Virus record (IMG/VR): IMGVR_UViG_3300044614_000534
Span: 1-24,211 of that record
Reading direction: 5' to 3' (one strand)
DNA length: 24,211 nt
DNA from: a virus
In this document: positions 1 to 6,138 of the stretch, in pieces
Position numbering within the stretch: position 1 is the first letter of the stretch
Layout of the letters: every line of letters begins with the position of its first letter
Notes under the pieces: generated by a model
The model's input: only the letters and a program-made list of their open reading frames with translations
Database searches by the model: none
Told to the model about the DNA's origin: nothing
Position numbers and translations under genes: made by a program

Positions 1-963
1 GAGCCCATCATCCTCCGCGCCGGCGAGGGCATCGCACTCGTCCAGGAGGTGTTCGGCCTGCCGCATTCGATGATCGTCTCGGCGGTGGTCACGAACACGA
101 CGACGGGCGCGACCTACGTCTGCCGCTCGACCGATGTCGGCACCGACCGCACGATCGGCGGGGCGCTGTACGCCATCATGAACGGCAGCGGTTCGGGCGT
201 GACGCTGGCCGTGAAGCTGATTTTCCTGCCGATGGACGGCGAGTCTGCCCTGACTCCCAGCCTGCGCTTGATGCGGATGGACGGGTACTCGATGCGCGGC
301 GATGCGGCCACGGTCATCAGCGCCGACACCTCGAAGACCGCGCCGAGCAGTCTCAAGGTGTCGGTCGGGCCGATGCAGATTCGCCTGCCCGGCGAGTGGC
401 AACCCGACATGTACACCACGCACGGTCTTGCGTATCAGGGTACTGGCGCATTGTTGCAGGCGTGGTTGAACGCGCAGCTCAACGCCGGGGTGTTCACCCG
501 CAAGACGTACACCAACATCTTCCCGAACGTCGGCATCGGTAACGCCATCGGATTCCAGTCCTCGACGATGGACGATTGCTTGATGCTCGACGCTGCGCCG
601 GGGAGTGGCATCATCGTGACGCCGGGGCAGGGCTTGGCGCTGGTCGGTGGAAGGTTTCAGGAACTTTCGCAAGAACCGTTGCGCGGCGCGGCCTCGACGT
701 TCCACAACTACGACATCGAGGCGACCATCCTCTACTACCCGCCCACAGTGAGCGGCACCTATCCCGCGACTGGCGACGTCGATCAGGGCGTGCTGTACGG
801 CCCGAATGGCAACGACTACACCGGCACGCTCGAGCAGCCTGCCGAGGCCGACGTGAAACTCGGTGTATCCTATGGCGCGAACGGGACGGAGTTCACCGGC
901 ACCTATTCTGGCGGTGGTGGCGGCAACACCTACTCGAAGTCGCGAGTCGTGAACAAGGGATAG
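1..963 (+). CDS. Phage virion structural protein, 5' end cut by the window edge
   Basis: The frame is open from base 1, so the gene starts upstream of the window. A GTG at 49 is possible but lies inside a continuous conserved-looking beta-domain, so I do not take it as the start. The visible 320 residues look like two related beta-rich domains: the first, truncated one contains ILRAGEGIALV near its end, and the second contains IIVTPGQGLALV around residues 203-214 followed by a similar strand run. The C-terminus carries two 25-residue repeats with YGxNG and TGT signatures, then a glycine-rich linker and a basic tail. This pattern is common in phage appendage or tail-associated proteins. It stops 3 bases before the next gene, so it is probably in the same operon. 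The exact role is not recognised. Confidence 0.75.
   Translation, partial: EPIILRAGEGIALVQEVFGLPHSMIVSAVVTNTTTGATYVCRSTDVGTDRTIGGALYAIMNGSGSGVTLAVKLIFLPMDGESALTPSLRLMRMDGYSMRGDAATVISADTSKTAPSSLKVSVGPMQIRLPGEWQPDMYTTHGLAYQGTGALLQAWLNAQLNAGVFTRKTYTNIFPNVGIGNAIGFQSSTMDDCLMLDAAPGSGIIVTPGQGLALVGGRFQELSQEPLRGAASTFHNYDIEATILYYPPTVSGTYPATGDVDQGVLYGPNGNDYTGTLEQPAEADVKLGVSYGANGTEFTGTYSGGGGGNTYSKSRVVNKG
766..915 (+). repeat. Two in-frame 75-bp repeats encoding DVxxGVxYGxNGxxxTGT units
   Basis: Units at 766-840 and 841-915 are exactly 25 codons apart. The shared residues are D-V-x-x-G-V, Y-G-x-N-G and T-G-T. The unit resembles short repeats often found at the ends of phage appendage proteins. The function is unknown. 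Confidence 0.75.
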
Positions 964-966
964 ACC

Positions 967-1971
967 ATGCTCAAGCAGTCCACAGCCCGAAATGTGATGG
1001 TCTTCCTGACCGACTCGACCGACCACGTCACCGGGCTGGCGGGCGCGACCCTGACCATCACGCTTTCCAAGAACGGCGCGGCCTTCGCCTCCATCACCCC
1101 GACCGTGACCGACCGCACGAACGGCTGGTACAGCGTCGCCCTCACCACGGCACACACCGACACGCTCGGGGATCTGGTGCTGCGGGCGACGGCTGCGGGC
1201 GCCGACCCCATCGACCTGCGCGAACAGGTGTTCGCCGGTCTGCCTGGGGAATCCGTCACGGTGTCGAGCATCGGCACGGACGTCATCACCTCGACGGCGC
1301 TTGCCGCCTCGGCGGTCACGGAGATCGCCACCGGGGTGCGCTCCGAGCTTGCCACCGAGCTCGCCCGCATCGACGTCGCCACCTCGACGCGGCTCGCGAC
1401 CTCGGGCTACACGGTGCCGCCGACGGCTTCGGCCAACGCGACCGCCGTCCGCTCCGAGCACACGACCGAGCTGGGCCGCATCGATGCGGCCGTCTCGACC
1501 CGGCTTGCCACCTCCGGTTACACCGCCCCCGCTTCGGCGGCGACCATCGCTGGTGCAGTCTGGGACGAGGTTCTGTCCGGCCACACCACGGCAGGCACGA
1601 CCGGCAAGGCCCTCGACGATGCGGCTGCAGGCGGCGGCGGTGGCGGCACGGACTGGACTGCCGGGGAACGGGAGCAGATTCGCAACCGGCTCGGCATCGA
1701 CGGCACGGCCAGCGCCCCGAGCGCGACCCCGACCCTTGCGACCCCGGCCTCGGTGCGGACGGAGCTCACGGTCGAGCTCTCGCGCATCGATGTGGCGACC
1801 TCGAGCCGCCTTGCCACGGCAGGCTATACCGCTGCGCCGACCGCTTCGGACAACGCCACGGCGGTCCTGCTCGCGGCTGAGACGACGCCGATCCGCAGCG
1901 ACATCCGCAAGGTCAACAACTACGCGGTCAAGGGTTCCGGCACCCTGCTCGACCCGTGGGGTCCTGTGTGA
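967..1971 (+). CDS. Phage structural/appendage protein with N-terminal beta-domain and 37-residue repeats
   Basis: This is a 334-residue protein with an ATG start and an AAGGGA ribosome site a few bases upstream. Residues 1-95 look like a single beta-sandwich (Ig-like) domain opening with LKQSTARNVMV, a type I recognise from many phage structural clusters. Residues 125-161, 162-198 and 264-300 are three copies of a 37-residue unit built around an E-L-x-R-I-D helix and an R-L-A-T-x-G-Y-T strand. Residues 195-215 hold an AVWDEVLSGHTTAGTTGKAL stretch also common in phage proteins. A glycine run near 222-227 separates the repeat groups. The C-terminal GTLLDPWGPV resembles an appendage end. It is likely a fibre-like or tail-tip component made with its two neighbours, but no enzymatic motif is visible. 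Confidence 0.8.
   Translation: MLKQSTARNVMVFLTDSTDHVTGLAGATLTITLSKNGAAFASITPTVTDRTNGWYSVALTTAHTDTLGDLVLRATAAGADPIDLREQVFAGLPGESVTVSSIGTDVITSTALAASAVTEIATGVRSELATELARIDVATSTRLATSGYTVPPTASANATAVRSEHTTELGRIDAAVSTRLATSGYTAPASAATIAGAVWDEVLSGHTTAGTTGKALDDAAAGGGGGGTDWTAGEREQIRNRLGIDGTASAPSATPTLATPASVRTELTVELSRIDVATSSRLATAGYTAAPTASDNATAVLLAAETTPIRSDIRKVNNYAVKGSGTLLDPWGPV
1339..1866 (+). repeat. Three in-frame 111-bp repeats in the appendage gene
   Basis: Units lie at 1339-1449, 1450-1560 and 1756-1866; the first two are directly adjacent. Each encodes 37 residues with conserved R-x-E, E-L-x-R-I-D, S-x-R-L-A-T and G-Y-T positions. The second unit diverges at its end, running into the AVWDEVLSG stretch. 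Duplication within a fibre shaft is the simplest reading. Confidence 0.85.
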
Positions 1972-2435
1972 GTGCATGGGGCCAGTCCTGGGGCCTGTCA
2001 TGGGGCTCAGGGTGGGGGCCGCTACAGAACAGCGTCTGGGGGAACTCGTGGGGGTTCTCATGGGGCTTCTCGTGGAACGCGCAGGTGGTCGTCCCGGTCA
2101 ATCTGCCGGGTGTCAACCTGCTCGGCGTGGGCGGCGGCGGCGGGTGGACAGGCCTCCCGAGATACGGCGAGGAGCCGCCCGTCATACGGCTGAATCCCTC
2201 GCTTCCGGGGTCGAAAGCGCTTAGACTTGGCGACACAGAGCAGCCGTTCGGGTCAGAGCAGGCCGTGAGGCTTTCGTCCCGTGGTGGACTCGGCGGCGCG
2301 GTCGGCAGGGTGCAGCGGGTGGTCCGGCCTTCGGTCGGTGTCGCCGCTGCGGGACTCGGTGGCCCGACACCTACGCCGGTACCGGGTGGCCCGGGTGGAC
2401 GGCCAAGAGAGCCGGGAGACGTGAACGTCGTATGA
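1968..2435 (+). CDS. Tryptophan-tetrapeptide-repeat protein, unknown function
   Basis: I chose the GTG at 1968 because it overlaps the upstream stop as GTGA, the coupling used elsewhere in this operon; GTG 1956 is an in-frame alternative. The 155-residue product begins with a striking Trp repeat: W at residues 4, 8, 12, 16, then 24, 28, 32, 36, nearly always followed by Gly. Residues 38-60 are hydrophobic and Gly-rich (VVVPVNLPGVNLLGVGGGGG). The rest is low-complexity and rich in Gly, Pro, Arg and Val, with no domain I recognise. It ends in an ATGA overlap with the next gene. Its place beside two appendage-like genes suggests a small virion component, but this is inference only. Confidence 0.7.
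   Translation: MSAWGQSWGLSWGSGWGPLQNSVWGNSWGFSWGFSWNAQVVVPVNLPGVNLLGVGGGGGWTGLPRYGEEPPVIRLNPSLPGSKALRLGDTEQPFGSEQAVRLSSRGGLGGAVGRVQRVVRPSVGVAAAGLGGPTPTPVPGGPGGRPREPGDVNVV
1977..2075 (+). repeat. 12-bp periodic repeat encoding S-W-G-x units
   Basis: TGG codons recur every 12 bases at 1977, 1989, 2001 and 2013, then at 2037, 2049, 2061 and 2073. One position (2025) is replaced by a Gln codon. The period is exact with no indels, and Ser usually precedes and Gly usually follows each Trp. Confidence 0.9.
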
Positions 2436-2728
2436 AGACCGCCGCATGGCAACGCAAGGCAGGGCAGAACCCGAAGGGCGGTCTCAACGAGGCCGGTCGC
2501 CGCTCTGCCAAGGCCGAGGGGATGAACCTCAAGGCCCCGGTGAAGTCAGGGGATAACCCGCGCCGCGCATCATTCTTGGCGCGAATGGGAAACATGCCCG
2601 GCCCGATGGTCGGGAAGGACGGCAAGCCGACCCGCCTCGCCCTCGCCTTGAAGGCATGGGGCGCGAGCTCGAAGGAAGACGCCAAGGCGAAGGCCAAGGC
2701 GATCAGCAACCGCAACAAGGGGAAGTGA
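2432..2728 (+). CDS. Conserved phage protein of unknown function (DUF6321-like)
   Basis: A 98-residue, very basic protein starting with ATG in an ATGA overlap with the preceding gene. The central run includes NPKGGLNEAGR, LKAPVKSGDNPRR and SFLARMGNMPGP, followed by RLALALKAWGASSKEDAKAK. From memory this matches a small conserved phage family annotated DUF6321; I could not search to confirm. The Lys/Arg-rich composition and Ala/Lys helical C-terminus suggest nucleic-acid contact, but no motif proves it. It sits directly upstream of the terminase genes, with a second small basic protein between. Confidence 0.75.
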   Translation: MKTAAWQRKAGQNPKGGLNEAGRRSAKAEGMNLKAPVKSGDNPRRASFLARMGNMPGPMVGKDGKPTRLALALKAWGASSKEDAKAKAKAISNRNKGK

Positions 2729-2730
2729 CC

Positions 2731-2901
2731 ATGCCGCTCAAGCAGGGCTACAGCCAGAAGACCATCAGCCGCAACATCTCAGCCGAGGTCCGCGCCGGCC
2801 GGCCGCAGAAGCAGGCCGTCGCCATCGCCCTCGAGACCGCCCGACGCTCGGCCAAGAGCGCCGGGAAGGGTGCCGCCGCCCGCCGCCTGATGGCTAAGTG
2901 A
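2731..2901 (+). CDS. Small basic phage protein (DUF6496-like)
   Basis: A 56-residue product starting at the ATG at 2731, two bases after the upstream stop, with a GGGGAAGTG ribosome site just before it. It opens MPLKQGYSQKTISRNISAEV, then GRPQKQAVAIALETARRSAK, and ends in a Lys/Ala-rich helix. This N-terminal pattern is widespread in phage genomes near terminase genes and resembles what I recall as DUF6496. The function is unknown. The stop overlaps the start of the small terminase gene as TGATG. Confidence 0.75.
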   Translation: MPLKQGYSQKTISRNISAEVRAGRPQKQAVAIALETARRSAKSAGKGAAARRLMAK

Positions 2902-3302
2902 TGCCAAGGGGAAGACCGTCCATCTACTCGCAGGAACTGGCCGACCGCATCTGTGAGCGGCTGGCCTCCGGCGAGTCCCTGCGCTCCATCTGTGGGGATG
3001 ACGGGATGCCATCGTGGCCGACCATCTCCAAGTGGCTGAACGAAAAGCCAGACTTTGTTACACAGTACGCACGCGCACGCGAAGACCAAGCCGAGGCCCA
3101 CGCCGACCGCATCATCGAGATCGCGGACGACGAGACCATCGACGCGAACCACAAGCGCATCATGGTGGACGCCCGCAAGTGGGTGGCCTCCAAGCTCAAG
3201 CCCAAGCGCTACGGCGACAAGCTCGACCTCGAGCACAAGGGCGAGGTAGGCCTGACCGTCAATGTCGTGCGGTTCACCGATGCCGATAAGCCTTCCGGCT
3301 AA
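2901..3302 (+). CDS. terS: Terminase small subunit
   Basis: This 133-residue protein probably recognises phage DNA and recruits the large terminase to start packaging. Residues 4-50 form a helix-turn-helix region (GRPSIYSQELADRICERLAS, then SLRSIC and SWPTISKWL), characteristic of Sf6-type small terminases. A helical middle segment rich in Glu, Asp and Ala follows (YARAREDQAEAHADRI), ending in DARKWVASKLKPKRYGDK, a signature I know from this family. I use the ATG at 2901 (TGATG overlap); GTG 2898 is an alternative giving one extra residue. The 3' end overlaps the large terminase by 23 bases, supporting the pair. Family assignment rests on motif recognition, not a search. Confidence 0.88.
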   Translation: MPRGRPSIYSQELADRICERLASGESLRSICGDDGMPSWPTISKWLNEKPDFVTQYARAREDQAEAHADRIIEIADDETIDANHKRIMVDARKWVASKLKPKRYGDKLDLEHKGEVGLTVNVVRFTDADKPSG

Positions 3303-4647
3303 CGGCTGGTCTCCCCGCCCCTACCAGTTGGAGGCGTGGGGCGCTCTGGAGAAGGGCTGCAAGCGTCTCGCCTTGGCGTGGCACCGCCGTTCCGGCAAAG
3401 ACGACATCTCCCTGCACTGGGCGGCTGTGTCTGCCATGACCCGGGTGGGCGGTATCTGGCACATGCTTCCCCAGGCGAACCAGTCGCGGAAAGCCATCTG
3501 GGACGCGGTGGACCCGCACACCGGGCGGCGGCGCATCGATGCTGCCTTCCCGCTCGAGCTGCGCGAGACCACCCGCGAGCAGGACATGTTCATCCGGTTC
3601 AAGAACGGCTCGACGTGGCAGGTCGTGGGGTCGGACAACTACAACAGCCTGATCGGCTCGCCGCCCATGGGGGTCGTGTTCTCCGAGTACGCCCTCGCCG
3701 ACCCGAATGCCTGGGCGTTCCTGCGTCCCATCCTTGCCGAAAACAACGGCTGGGCGATATTCATCTCGACCCCGCGTGGGCGGAATCACTTTGCCCGTCT
3801 GGTGGACTACGCCCGCAAGGACCCGGCGTGGTTCGGTCAGGTGCTGACGGTCGAGGATACGAAGTCCATACCGATGGCGACCATCGATCGCGAGCGCAAG
3901 GAGCTGCGGGTCGAGCGCGGCGACAAGGAAGCCGAGGCCATCATCCGGCAGGAGTACTACTGCGACTTCGACGCCGACATCCCCGGTGCCTACTACGGCG
4001 ATGCCATCCTCAAGGCCGAGCAGGGCGGGCGGGTGGACGAGTTCCCGCACGTCATCGGCCAGCCGGTCGGGACCGCGTGGGACATCGGCATCGGCGACTC
4101 GACGGTGGTCTGGTTCTACCAGCTCATCGGCCAGAAGGTGCGCATCATCAACGTGCTCGAGGGCTCCGGCGTCGGGCTCGACTGGTACGCGAAGAAGCTC
4201 CTCGCCATGGACTACGTCTACGCCGACCACATCTGGCCGCACGACGGGGCGGTGAAGGAGTGGGGGTCTGGCAAGTCCCGGCTGCAGACGGCGGCGGGCT
4301 ACGGCCTCAACCCTCGGGTGCTGGAGGCTGACTCGGTGGACGATGGCATCCAGGCGGTGCGCCAGATGCTGCCGGTGGTCGAGTGGAACAAGCGGCCTGA
4401 CCCGTTCCCCGGCGAGACGGCAGACGAGGCGGCGGCGCGGATGACCCGGGCCATGGACGCCATCCGGCAGTACCGGCGCGAGTACGACGAGCGGCTGCAG
4501 CGGTTCAAGGACCGCCCGCTGCATGACTGGACGAGCCACTACGCTGACGCCCTGCGGTACCTTGCCAAGGGTCGCAGGCCGTTCCGAGGGACGGTGCGCC
4601 GGGGTGGCCCCGGGGTAGCGGTAGCAGATTACTCGGTGTTGGGCTAG
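3280..4647 (+). CDS. terL: Terminase large subunit (packaging ATPase/nuclease)
   Basis: This motor subunit translocates DNA into the prohead and cuts the concatemer. Counting from the ATG at 3280 (455 residues), the Walker A-like HRRSGKDD lies at 35-42, Walker B VVFSEY with the catalytic Glu at 132-137, and the coupling motif STPRG at 163-167. Candidate metal ligands of the C-terminal RNase H-fold nuclease are D268 and D273 (AWDIGIGD), D322 (PHDG) and D423 (SHYADALRYL). An ATG at 3262 would add six residues and more overlap with the small subunit; I prefer 3280. The length is normal for a podovirus large terminase. No damage to the motifs is visible. Confidence 0.95.
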   Translation: MPISLPANGWSPRPYQLEAWGALEKGCKRLALAWHRRSGKDDISLHWAAVSAMTRVGGIWHMLPQANQSRKAIWDAVDPHTGRRRIDAAFPLELRETTREQDMFIRFKNGSTWQVVGSDNYNSLIGSPPMGVVFSEYALADPNAWAFLRPILAENNGWAIFISTPRGRNHFARLVDYARKDPAWFGQVLTVEDTKSIPMATIDRERKELRVERGDKEAEAIIRQEYYCDFDADIPGAYYGDAILKAEQGGRVDEFPHVIGQPVGTAWDIGIGDSTVVWFYQLIGQKVRIINVLEGSGVGLDWYAKKLLAMDYVYADHIWPHDGAVKEWGSGKSRLQTAAGYGLNPRVLEADSVDDGIQAVRQMLPVVEWNKRPDPFPGETADEAAARMTRAMDAIRQYRREYDERLQRFKDRPLHDWTSHYADALRYLAKGRRPFRGTVRRGGPGVAVADYSVLG

Positions 4648-5561: not shown

Positions 5562-5849
5562 ATGAAGACGGCATACACCCTGCTTTCCAATGCCAGTGCG
5601 ACGGGCAACTGGTTCCCTTGGCCCGGTGGTCGTGGTGACTTTCGTGTAGAGGCGACCTTCGGCGGCGGCAGCGTGACGCTCCAATGCAAGGGTCCGAACG
5701 GCACGGCCATCGCGGTGGCTACTGCGACGACGCTCACGGCGAACGGTCGCGGCACCTTCGAGCTCGGGCCGGGTGAGATTCGCGCAGCGGTGGCGACGGC
5801 GACTGCCGTCTACGCTCAGGTTCTGCGCATCGCGGACTCCGGGTACTGA
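5562..5849 (+). CDS. Small beta-rich phage protein, first of a tandem duplicated pair
   Basis: A 95-residue protein with a TTGAGGTAATCC leader before the ATG. The sequence alternates hydrophobic and polar residues, as in a compact beta-barrel: NASATGNWFPWPGGRGDFRV, VTLQCKGPNGTA, FELGPGEIRAAV, TAVYAQVLRI. It aligns without gaps to the next gene at about 65 of 95 identical positions by hand count. It resembles small virion surface proteins, but I do not recognise a family with a known role. Confidence 0.75.
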   Translation: MKTAYTLLSNASATGNWFPWPGGRGDFRVEATFGGGSVTLQCKGPNGTAIAVATATTLTANGRGTFELGPGEIRAAVATATAVYAQVLRIADSGY

Positions 5850-5850
5850 C

Positions 5851-6138
5851 ATGGCTACGGGCATCGTCCTTGCATCCAACGCCAGCGCCACGGGTTCGTG
5901 GTTCGCATGGCCGGGTGGTCGTGGCGAGTTCCGTGTTGAGGCGACCTTCGGTGGCGGCACGGTCAAGTTGCAGTGCAAGGGGCCGAACGGCACCGCGCAG
6001 GATGTGGGTGCAGATGTGACGCTGACTGCGGCTGGTGGTGGCATCTTCGAGCTGGGTGCCGGTGAGATCCGCTGCAGCATTGCGACCTCGACTGCTGTCT
6101 ATGCGGTGGCGCTGCGCATCCCGAGCCCTGGATTCTAA
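5851..6138 (+). CDS. Small beta-rich phage protein, second of a tandem duplicated pair
   Basis: A 95-residue paralogue of the preceding gene, starting one base after its stop. It keeps the SNASATG, WPGGRG, FRVEATFGGG and LQCKGPNGTA cores and the FELG-GEIR segment. The differences cluster at residues 50-56, 75-80 and the C-terminus. The true start is taken at 5851 because homology with the paralogue begins there; upstream in-frame codons belong to the paralogue's DNA. Its stop overlaps the next small gene as TAATG. Role unknown, probably structural. Confidence 0.75.
   Translation: MATGIVLASNASATGSWFAWPGGRGEFRVEATFGGGTVKLQCKGPNGTAQDVGADVTLTAAGGGIFELGAGEIRCSIATSTAVYAVALRIPSPGF

Follow-up and report, generated by a model that had tools for sequence, protein, structure and literature searches.

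In modular polyketide synthases, each protein finds its partner through docking domains, a C-terminal peptide on one gene product and a matching N-terminal peptide on the next. In T4-type phages, gp38 or Tfa, a chaperone or adhesin encoded just 3′ of the fibre gene, acts on the C terminus of the fibre, and the capsid targeting sequence is a short N-terminal tag that is cleaved by the head protease and serves packaging inside the head. In fibre I of the podophage GP4, a rope protein reportedly links gp80 dimers. The neck fibre of the Anabaena myophage A-1(L) is a chain of beads in the order gp82–gp81–gp80, and in the authors' model, as given in the part of that report used here, N-terminal hairpins of gp81 contact the C-terminal domain of gp82 (PMC10966104). 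The window analysed here is a whole stretch of 24,211 bases from a virus record, with an Sf6-like small terminase, a large terminase and a Head-tail_con portal (PHROGs and Pfam searches). In it, a gene ending in a conserved C-terminal tail is followed by a gene beginning with a ladder of evenly spaced tryptophans. On the evidence of sequence, we give a probability of about 0.6 to the reading that tail and ladder form a matched docking pair, which would join consecutive virion proteins through coupled translation.

The tail and the ladder in the window

Read from its GTG at 1968 (another in-frame GTG lies at 1956), the ladder protein begins VSAWGQSWGLSWGSGWGPLQNSVWGNSWGFSWGFSWN... and carries Trp at residues 4, 8, 12, 16, 24, 28, 32 and 36, with the codons at 1977–2075 in one register. 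The first-pass annotation had described these eight Trp at a period of four, and both the residues of the reading frame and shuffling confirmed them. In 100,000 shuffles of the whole protein, at most 6 Trp fell in one register, compared with the 8 observed; in 100,000 shuffles of the first 36 residues, 7 did so 16 times and 8 never. The register is far beyond chance. The S-W-G-x setting that had been called usual holds for Gly, which follows W in 7 of 8 beats, and less well for Ser, which precedes it in 5 of 8. TRF found the underlying 12-bp repeats to be weak (82–85% matching).

Among 14 relative loci, two four-beat blocks are present in L002–L009 and L014 and one in L010–L013, and no ladder was seen in L015. 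Counted from the last Trp of one block to the first of the next, the blocks stand 8 residues apart in the window, L002 and L003, and 9 apart in L004, L008, L009 and L014. Because the gap can be 8 or 9 and some relatives have a single block, the conserved unit is the four-beat block and not an eight-beat lattice, and the ladder of the window is a duplicated four-beat module. The earlier description of a single eight-beat lattice with one missing beat is therefore replaced (L010 and L011 are single-block), and exact periodicity without indels fails as a rule, because the inter-block gap varies among relatives. Selection on spacing was nevertheless borne out, and the relatives had neither disrupted frames nor random Trp spacing. 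The remainder of the protein, set down as low-complexity, is not merely so: dN/dS between the window gene and eight relatives was 0.07–0.56, and in the body of the protein GGGWTxLPR is kept in 7 of 8 relatives and PPVIR in 8 of 8. The whole ladder gene is under purifying selection. No PHROGs or Pfam family matched the ladder protein, tblastn against 50,697 phage records returned no match for it or for that of L039, and AlphaFold2 gave no usable model of the ladder (pLDDT 49, pTM 0.15).

The upstream gene ends ...VKGSGTLLDPWGPV*. A profile of 75 such endings gives the tail consensus N-I-x-x-V-N-x-x-x-V-x-G-x-G-T-x-x-D-P-W-G-P, in which GxGTxxDPWGP was fixed by the search pattern itself. AlphaFold2 placed strands in residues 8–87 of the upstream protein and long helices after them, at low confidence (pLDDT 46), and gave no usable model of the tail either. 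The protein had no PHROG match, one sub-threshold Pfam match and no Gp80 domain. Foldseek matches of its model, which do not enter our argument, were Ig/filamin-like (best E 0.014) and included the phage baseplate entry 4v96 (E 0.47), which we take to be the BppU complex. PDB searches with the tail and ladder alignments and with two single proteins reached a best E of 0.38, and in general no Pfam or PHROG family was seen covering tail or ladder. Literature searches on the motifs and more broadly returned nothing relevant, most subscription papers lying outside their scope. The tail consensus, searched by tblastn against the 50,697 phage records, found a single record, MW202621.1, at E = 1; with both MW202621.1 proteins as queries, that record was again the only match.

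Table 1. Positions of the tail, the ladder and adjoining features in the window
Feature	Position	Strand	Remarks
Gene before the pair	1..963	+	Cut by window edge; no family match
Upstream partner gene, 334 aa	967..1971	+	Beta-strand N-domain (predicted), helical stalk, C-terminal tail DPWGPV*
C-terminal tail motif IRSDIRKVNNYAVKGSGTLLDPWGPV, consensus ..NIxxVNxxxVxGxGTxxDPWGPx	1891..1968	+	Profile of 75 endings, alignment, scan
GGGG from tail Trp-Gly codons, possible embedded Shine–Dalgarno	1958..1961	+	6 nt 5′ of GTG start; DNA, spacing statistics
Ladder protein gene, 155 aa, GTG start	1968..2435	+	4-base overlap (GTGA) with stop of upstream gene
Ladder block 1 VSAWGQSWGLSWGSGWG, four Trp, period 4	1968..2018	+	
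Ladder block 2 WGNSWGFSWGFSW, four Trp, period 4	2037..2075	+	Missing from L010–L013
Ladder protein body	2076..2432	+	No family match
Next gene, DUF6321 / phrog_4689	2432..2728	+	4-base overlap
Terminase small subunit (context)	2898..3302	+	

Elsewhere in the window, at 5562–5849 and 5851–6138, two adjoining genes of ~95 aa are near-parallel in sequence (SNASATGxWFxWPGGRGxFRVEATFGGG), apparently a tandem duplication.

Endings and the ladders that follow them

Viral contigs contain 74 stretches that match a DNA pattern of three SWG units. The small proteins encoded by many of these stretches start M-A/S-S-A-W-G-x-S-W-G-x-S-W-G-x-S-W-G but are otherwise unlike one another, and the genes 5′ of SWG-ladder proteins end in a common tail. 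After removal of 22 duplicates, visual inspection of the remaining 52 set aside 20, L057 among them, as low-complexity, shadow-frame or internal matches. A WxP-ending gene lies directly upstream of 30 of the 32 distinct ladders judged real. As for the other two, the L025 locus contains no sequence upstream of the ladder gene and L087 has no WxP ending, a narrow pattern (one residue after WxP, then TAA or TGA) being unmatched in its 18-kb record. The expectation that SWG ladders recur near appendage genes held, in that they stand at protein starts beside virion- or appendage-looking genes; overall, the interpretation in the first-pass annotation is partly supported.

The converse scan, with a GxGTxxDPWGP pattern blind to the next gene, gave 97 stretches. 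Across 96 loci, 93 of 96 matches lie at most 2 residues from the protein end, the others being L104, L118 and L160; in L104 and L118 the DPWGP is internal, the final tail is DPWRP and a ladder is present. By this ending-only scan, a ladder comes next in 75 of 77 distinct rows, as a scripted run of at least four beats in 73 and as four Trp with one altered step in L100 and L166. Of the two rows without one, L160 matched internally by chance, and the contig of L091 stops after MSSAWGASWGASWG. In a control with the same start-picking and loci, other ORF ends (at least 100 aa, 84 loci) were followed by a flexible four-beat ladder in 30 of 1810 cases, with strict period 4 in 2 and strict period 5 in 4. 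Strict period 4 holds in 69 of 75 rows after DPWGP (exactly four beats in 67, five in 2); of the six others, three are period-5 ladders (L088, L145 and L154), two are L100 and L166, and one is the truncated L091. Frames that match a loose aromatic pattern also arise by chance, ten of them in A-1(L) and one in MW202898.

Pooling all loci, with the junction of the window itself and the SWG-selected loci taken in, a ladder is present at 76 of 76 distinct full-motif DPWGP junctions, 75 W-type and 1 mixed W/F. The steps are 4,4,4 in 61 and 5,5,5 (Trp) in 4, with one altered step in 4 and more than four aromatic beats in 7 under the flexible rule. This pooling left out 2 DPWGP and 6 LWRG matches that do not have the full motif, one of the 6 having an F-type ladder. 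In GTDB genomes, GxGTxxDPWGP gave 23 matches, of which three were judged real (L176, L185 and L193), each with a ladder next; the other 20 are internal or without the full motif, and no ladder was seen after them. Variant DPW[SR]P endings are followed by a ladder in 5 of 7 distinct cases. Both without one, L336 and L340, are full-motif DPWRP endings whose records have no triple TGGGG repeat, and the Arg for Gly there may mark a different partner.

The kind of ladder follows the kind of ending. A search with the upstream N-domain alone found 163 relatives, of which 80 were kept, with 34 distinct endings. The 22 WxP endings are followed by a period-4 ladder in 22 of 22, and the 7 LWRG endings by a period-5, F-type four-beat ladder in 7 of 7 (for example, VSFSSSAFSTSAFSTSAW); 3 run off the contig, and 2 are of another kind with no ladder. 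A scan for LWRG endings (93 loci from 94 stretches) gave 39 distinct C-terminal matches, with a period-5 ladder next in 26, none under the strict rule in 13 and a period-4 ladder in 0. Of 29 pooled full-motif LWRG junctions, 27 have an F-type ladder next and none has a W ladder; in the exceptions, one beat of the ladder is Leu (L438) or the ladder is missing (L500). Among 143 junctions, chosen because a ladder is present, WxP endings precede 114 ladders of period 4 and 4 of period 5, and LWRG endings precede 25 of period 5 and 0 of period 4. Upstream proteins that are homologous to one another can have either ending, with the matching ladder each time (for example, L385 and L408, E 1e-55), and repeat-rich homologous downstream bodies can have either ladder, with the matching ending each time (for example, L168 and L403, E 1e-24). 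The downstream bodies are otherwise varied, 135 of them falling into 82 BLAST clusters, and the ladder is thus a short shared N-terminal tag on unrelated bodies, a feature of the T4-type capsid targeting sequence.

Because different endings go with different ladders, a joint between them would be specific. Tail and ladder could instead be two independent tags, the ladder docking its small protein to capsid, portal or neck, the tail doing a separate job and the match reflecting DNA neighbourhood. Their codons are only tens of bases apart, so the two would be co-inherited by linkage even if they bound different things; linkage over such distances can also give type matching, which therefore supports, but does not prove, binding. 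Head and packaging genes make up 10 of the 20 downstream neighbours scanned singly, and L057 has its ladder inside another protein, as this explanation would allow. Against it, tail and ladder stay adjacent even where the flanking bodies differ, and LWRG endings pair with a different ladder. We regard independent tags as unlikely, although they deserve real weight.

The ladder of L057, SSWGLSWGDSWGDAWGD, has four beats and lies on the minus strand inside a 619-aa protein, presumably a P22-gp10-like tail stabilization protein; the tail pattern had no match in its 44-kb record. Further ladders of other kinds were found. MW202621.1 (L195) encodes a protein that starts MFGRHYFGGAYYGARYWG and ends GDTWGPE*, then a protein starting MSGSAWGNSWSMAWGDSWG, and has a YFG ladder at 3815–4078. 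A YFG scan gave 9 stretches, whose YFGxR ladders repeat every five residues over four beats (three of them fixed by the pattern). In the loci examined, L199–L207, the YFGxR ladder is doubled in L206, and AVTLDxT endings lie upstream in L200, L201 and L202, with other endings in the rest. Among the matches listed, AFQ ladders (xAFQxxAFQxxAFQ; L211–L330) have period 5 and often stand near protein starts, and 110 of the 116 distinct ones have exactly three beats. The genes 5′ of them share no single ending and have several other recurrent ones, such as TVTVSSGSRWVVL and ITATKFVGVSGGTF. We rejected AFQ ladders as part of the same system because of these other endings and because PW occurs in 3 of 119 rows, 20 of which have no upstream frame, again among the matches listed.

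Probable coupled translation and genomic setting

Predicted ladder starts lie at −4, −1, 0 or +3 from the upstream stop in 72 of 74 cases, and in 70 of 74 the GGGG of the Trp-Gly codons ends 6–10 nt 5′ of the start, distances that the start-picking script favours when short, because it prefers ATG and nearness to the stop. The −4 overlap occurs in 0 of 23 tails without a residue after DPWGP versus 16 of 51 with one (P = 0.0016); without the extra residue, this overlap would cut the GGGG-to-start distance to 3 nt. The spacing suggests that the GGGG acts as an embedded Shine–Dalgarno sequence for the ladder gene, which may be one reason for the conserved W-G, but not for the remaining tail. A programmed frameshift fusing the two genes was discarded, because the frame relation between upstream stop and ladder varies.

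The repeats could also matter as nucleic acid, whether as 12-bp repeats, a G-quadruplex or a packaging or recombination site near the terminase. In the window, the Trp codons do keep a 12-bp register, with GG after 7 of 8, a few hundred bases before the terminase. Codon use led us to reject this idea. In and just before 69 ladders taken from the DPWGP scan, which does not select on ladder DNA, Ser is encoded by 134 TCN and 58 AGY codons with all six in use, which places selection on the protein. Phe replaces Trp in 20 of 276 beats (12, 5 and 3 of 69 at beats 2, 3 and 4) under a strict pattern that admits only W and F, and the third bases of Gly codons vary. With dN/dS below 1, and with the leading families of small and of large terminase each matched by 3 of 90 neighbours (best 25 of 126 families), a DNA element is scarcely credible.

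Of the 118 genes that lie first or second downstream of a ladder gene, 90 were scanned with PHROGs, and the commonest families were major head protein, head scaffold, terminase, head–tail adaptor and head protease (best 25 of 126). Twenty such downstream genes, hand-picked with a bias to longer ones and scanned singly, comprised 10 head or packaging genes, 1 tail fibre, 1 endolysin, 1 metallophosphoesterase, 1 glycosyltransferase/methyltransferase, 1 family of unknown function and 5 without a match. Just before the tail gene, 7 families were matched in 49 genes, two of them portal proteins, and the rarity of family matches for the gene before the pair counts against an established fibre operon. 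Of 70 upstream DPWGP proteins (from 71 listed), 4 match a head decoration PHROG and 1 a head protein PHROG, L119 alone carries the Gp80 domain of GP4 fibre I (PF23140), and weak matches were to RepB_primase_C (2) and Invasin_D3 (2). Head genes near the pair, the matches of the upstream proteins and the model together lead us to assign the pair tentatively to an appendage near the head or neck.

Among 75 ladder proteins, matches were scattered over 7 families, and these few included no named chaperone or adhesin family. This bears on the possibility that the ladder protein is an assembly chaperone or distal adhesin for the upstream fibre, analogous to T4-type gp38. Its gene does lie directly 3′ of a gene that appears fibre-like, paired with the C terminus of its product; however, the window protein has no PHROGs or Pfam match, and the bodies of ladder proteins are highly diverse. 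We think such a role improbable.

Some ladder proteins (for example, those of L093, L124, L162 and L055) end in an acidic stretch and a short hydrophobic tail (DDEDVLLLL, EDEEMLLMLMAA), as do 18 of 69 by a loose pattern that catches a few others too. The first-pass annotation had raised a membrane-active or glycan-binding Trp surface, with which the Trp-rich ladders and these loosely defined ends would be compatible. No result supports such a surface, which leaves unexplained the near-fixed number of four beats, the place at protein starts and the match to the upstream ending, and we consider it very improbable.

Proposed docking and its relation to known systems

In the docking reading that we prefer, the two genes overlap or abut and the tail Trp-Gly codons lie 6–10 nt before the next predicted start, at the Shine–Dalgarno position, so that the ladder would emerge from ribosomes beside freshly finished tails. 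Its four aromatic side chains, on a Gly/Ser/Ala backbone, would then pack onto the tail, linking the two proteins. The joined pair would be part of a head- or neck-proximal appendage, with the upstream protein as its fibre-like part and the ladder protein as a connector to the virion or to the next link. A broader proposal, which we hold as possible but more doubtful than the pair itself, is that a matched set of clasps and four-beat ladders (DPWGP–SWGx, LWRG–SAFxx and perhaps AVTLDxT–YFGxR) chains virion proteins in gene order through coupled translation. Such a joint would be portable, so fibre heads could be exchanged among virion connectors, and MW202621.1, in which a YFG-ladder protein has a WGP clasp at its own end and an SWG-ladder protein comes after it, would be a three-link chain.

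If true, this would let the binding partners among phage structural proteins be read as a sequence code from raw metagenomes. It would cover proteins that are mostly unnamed by Pfam and PHROGs, so that partners could be assigned across a large class of phage genes now without annotation, and would provide a short, portable and possibly orthogonal pair of peptide tags.

The likeness to polyketide synthase docking domains is one of description only, because those are helical, sit on enzymes and belong to an unrelated setting. T4-type gp38 and Tfa have no family match to the ladder proteins, which share a short N-terminal ladder and differ in the rest. The Gp80 domain of podophage GP4 fibre I (gp80, PF23140) had no match in the upstream protein of the window and is present in 1 of 70 DPWGP proteins. 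The closest architectural parallel is A-1(L), although its gp80, gp81 and gp82, when checked, had neither an aromatic ladder nor a WxP or WRG ending. In the part of the A-1(L) report used here, operon neighbours encode neck-appendage proteins joined head to tail (PMC10966104). The two genes of the pair in the window adjoin, and genomic context points to a possible role of their products in the virion.
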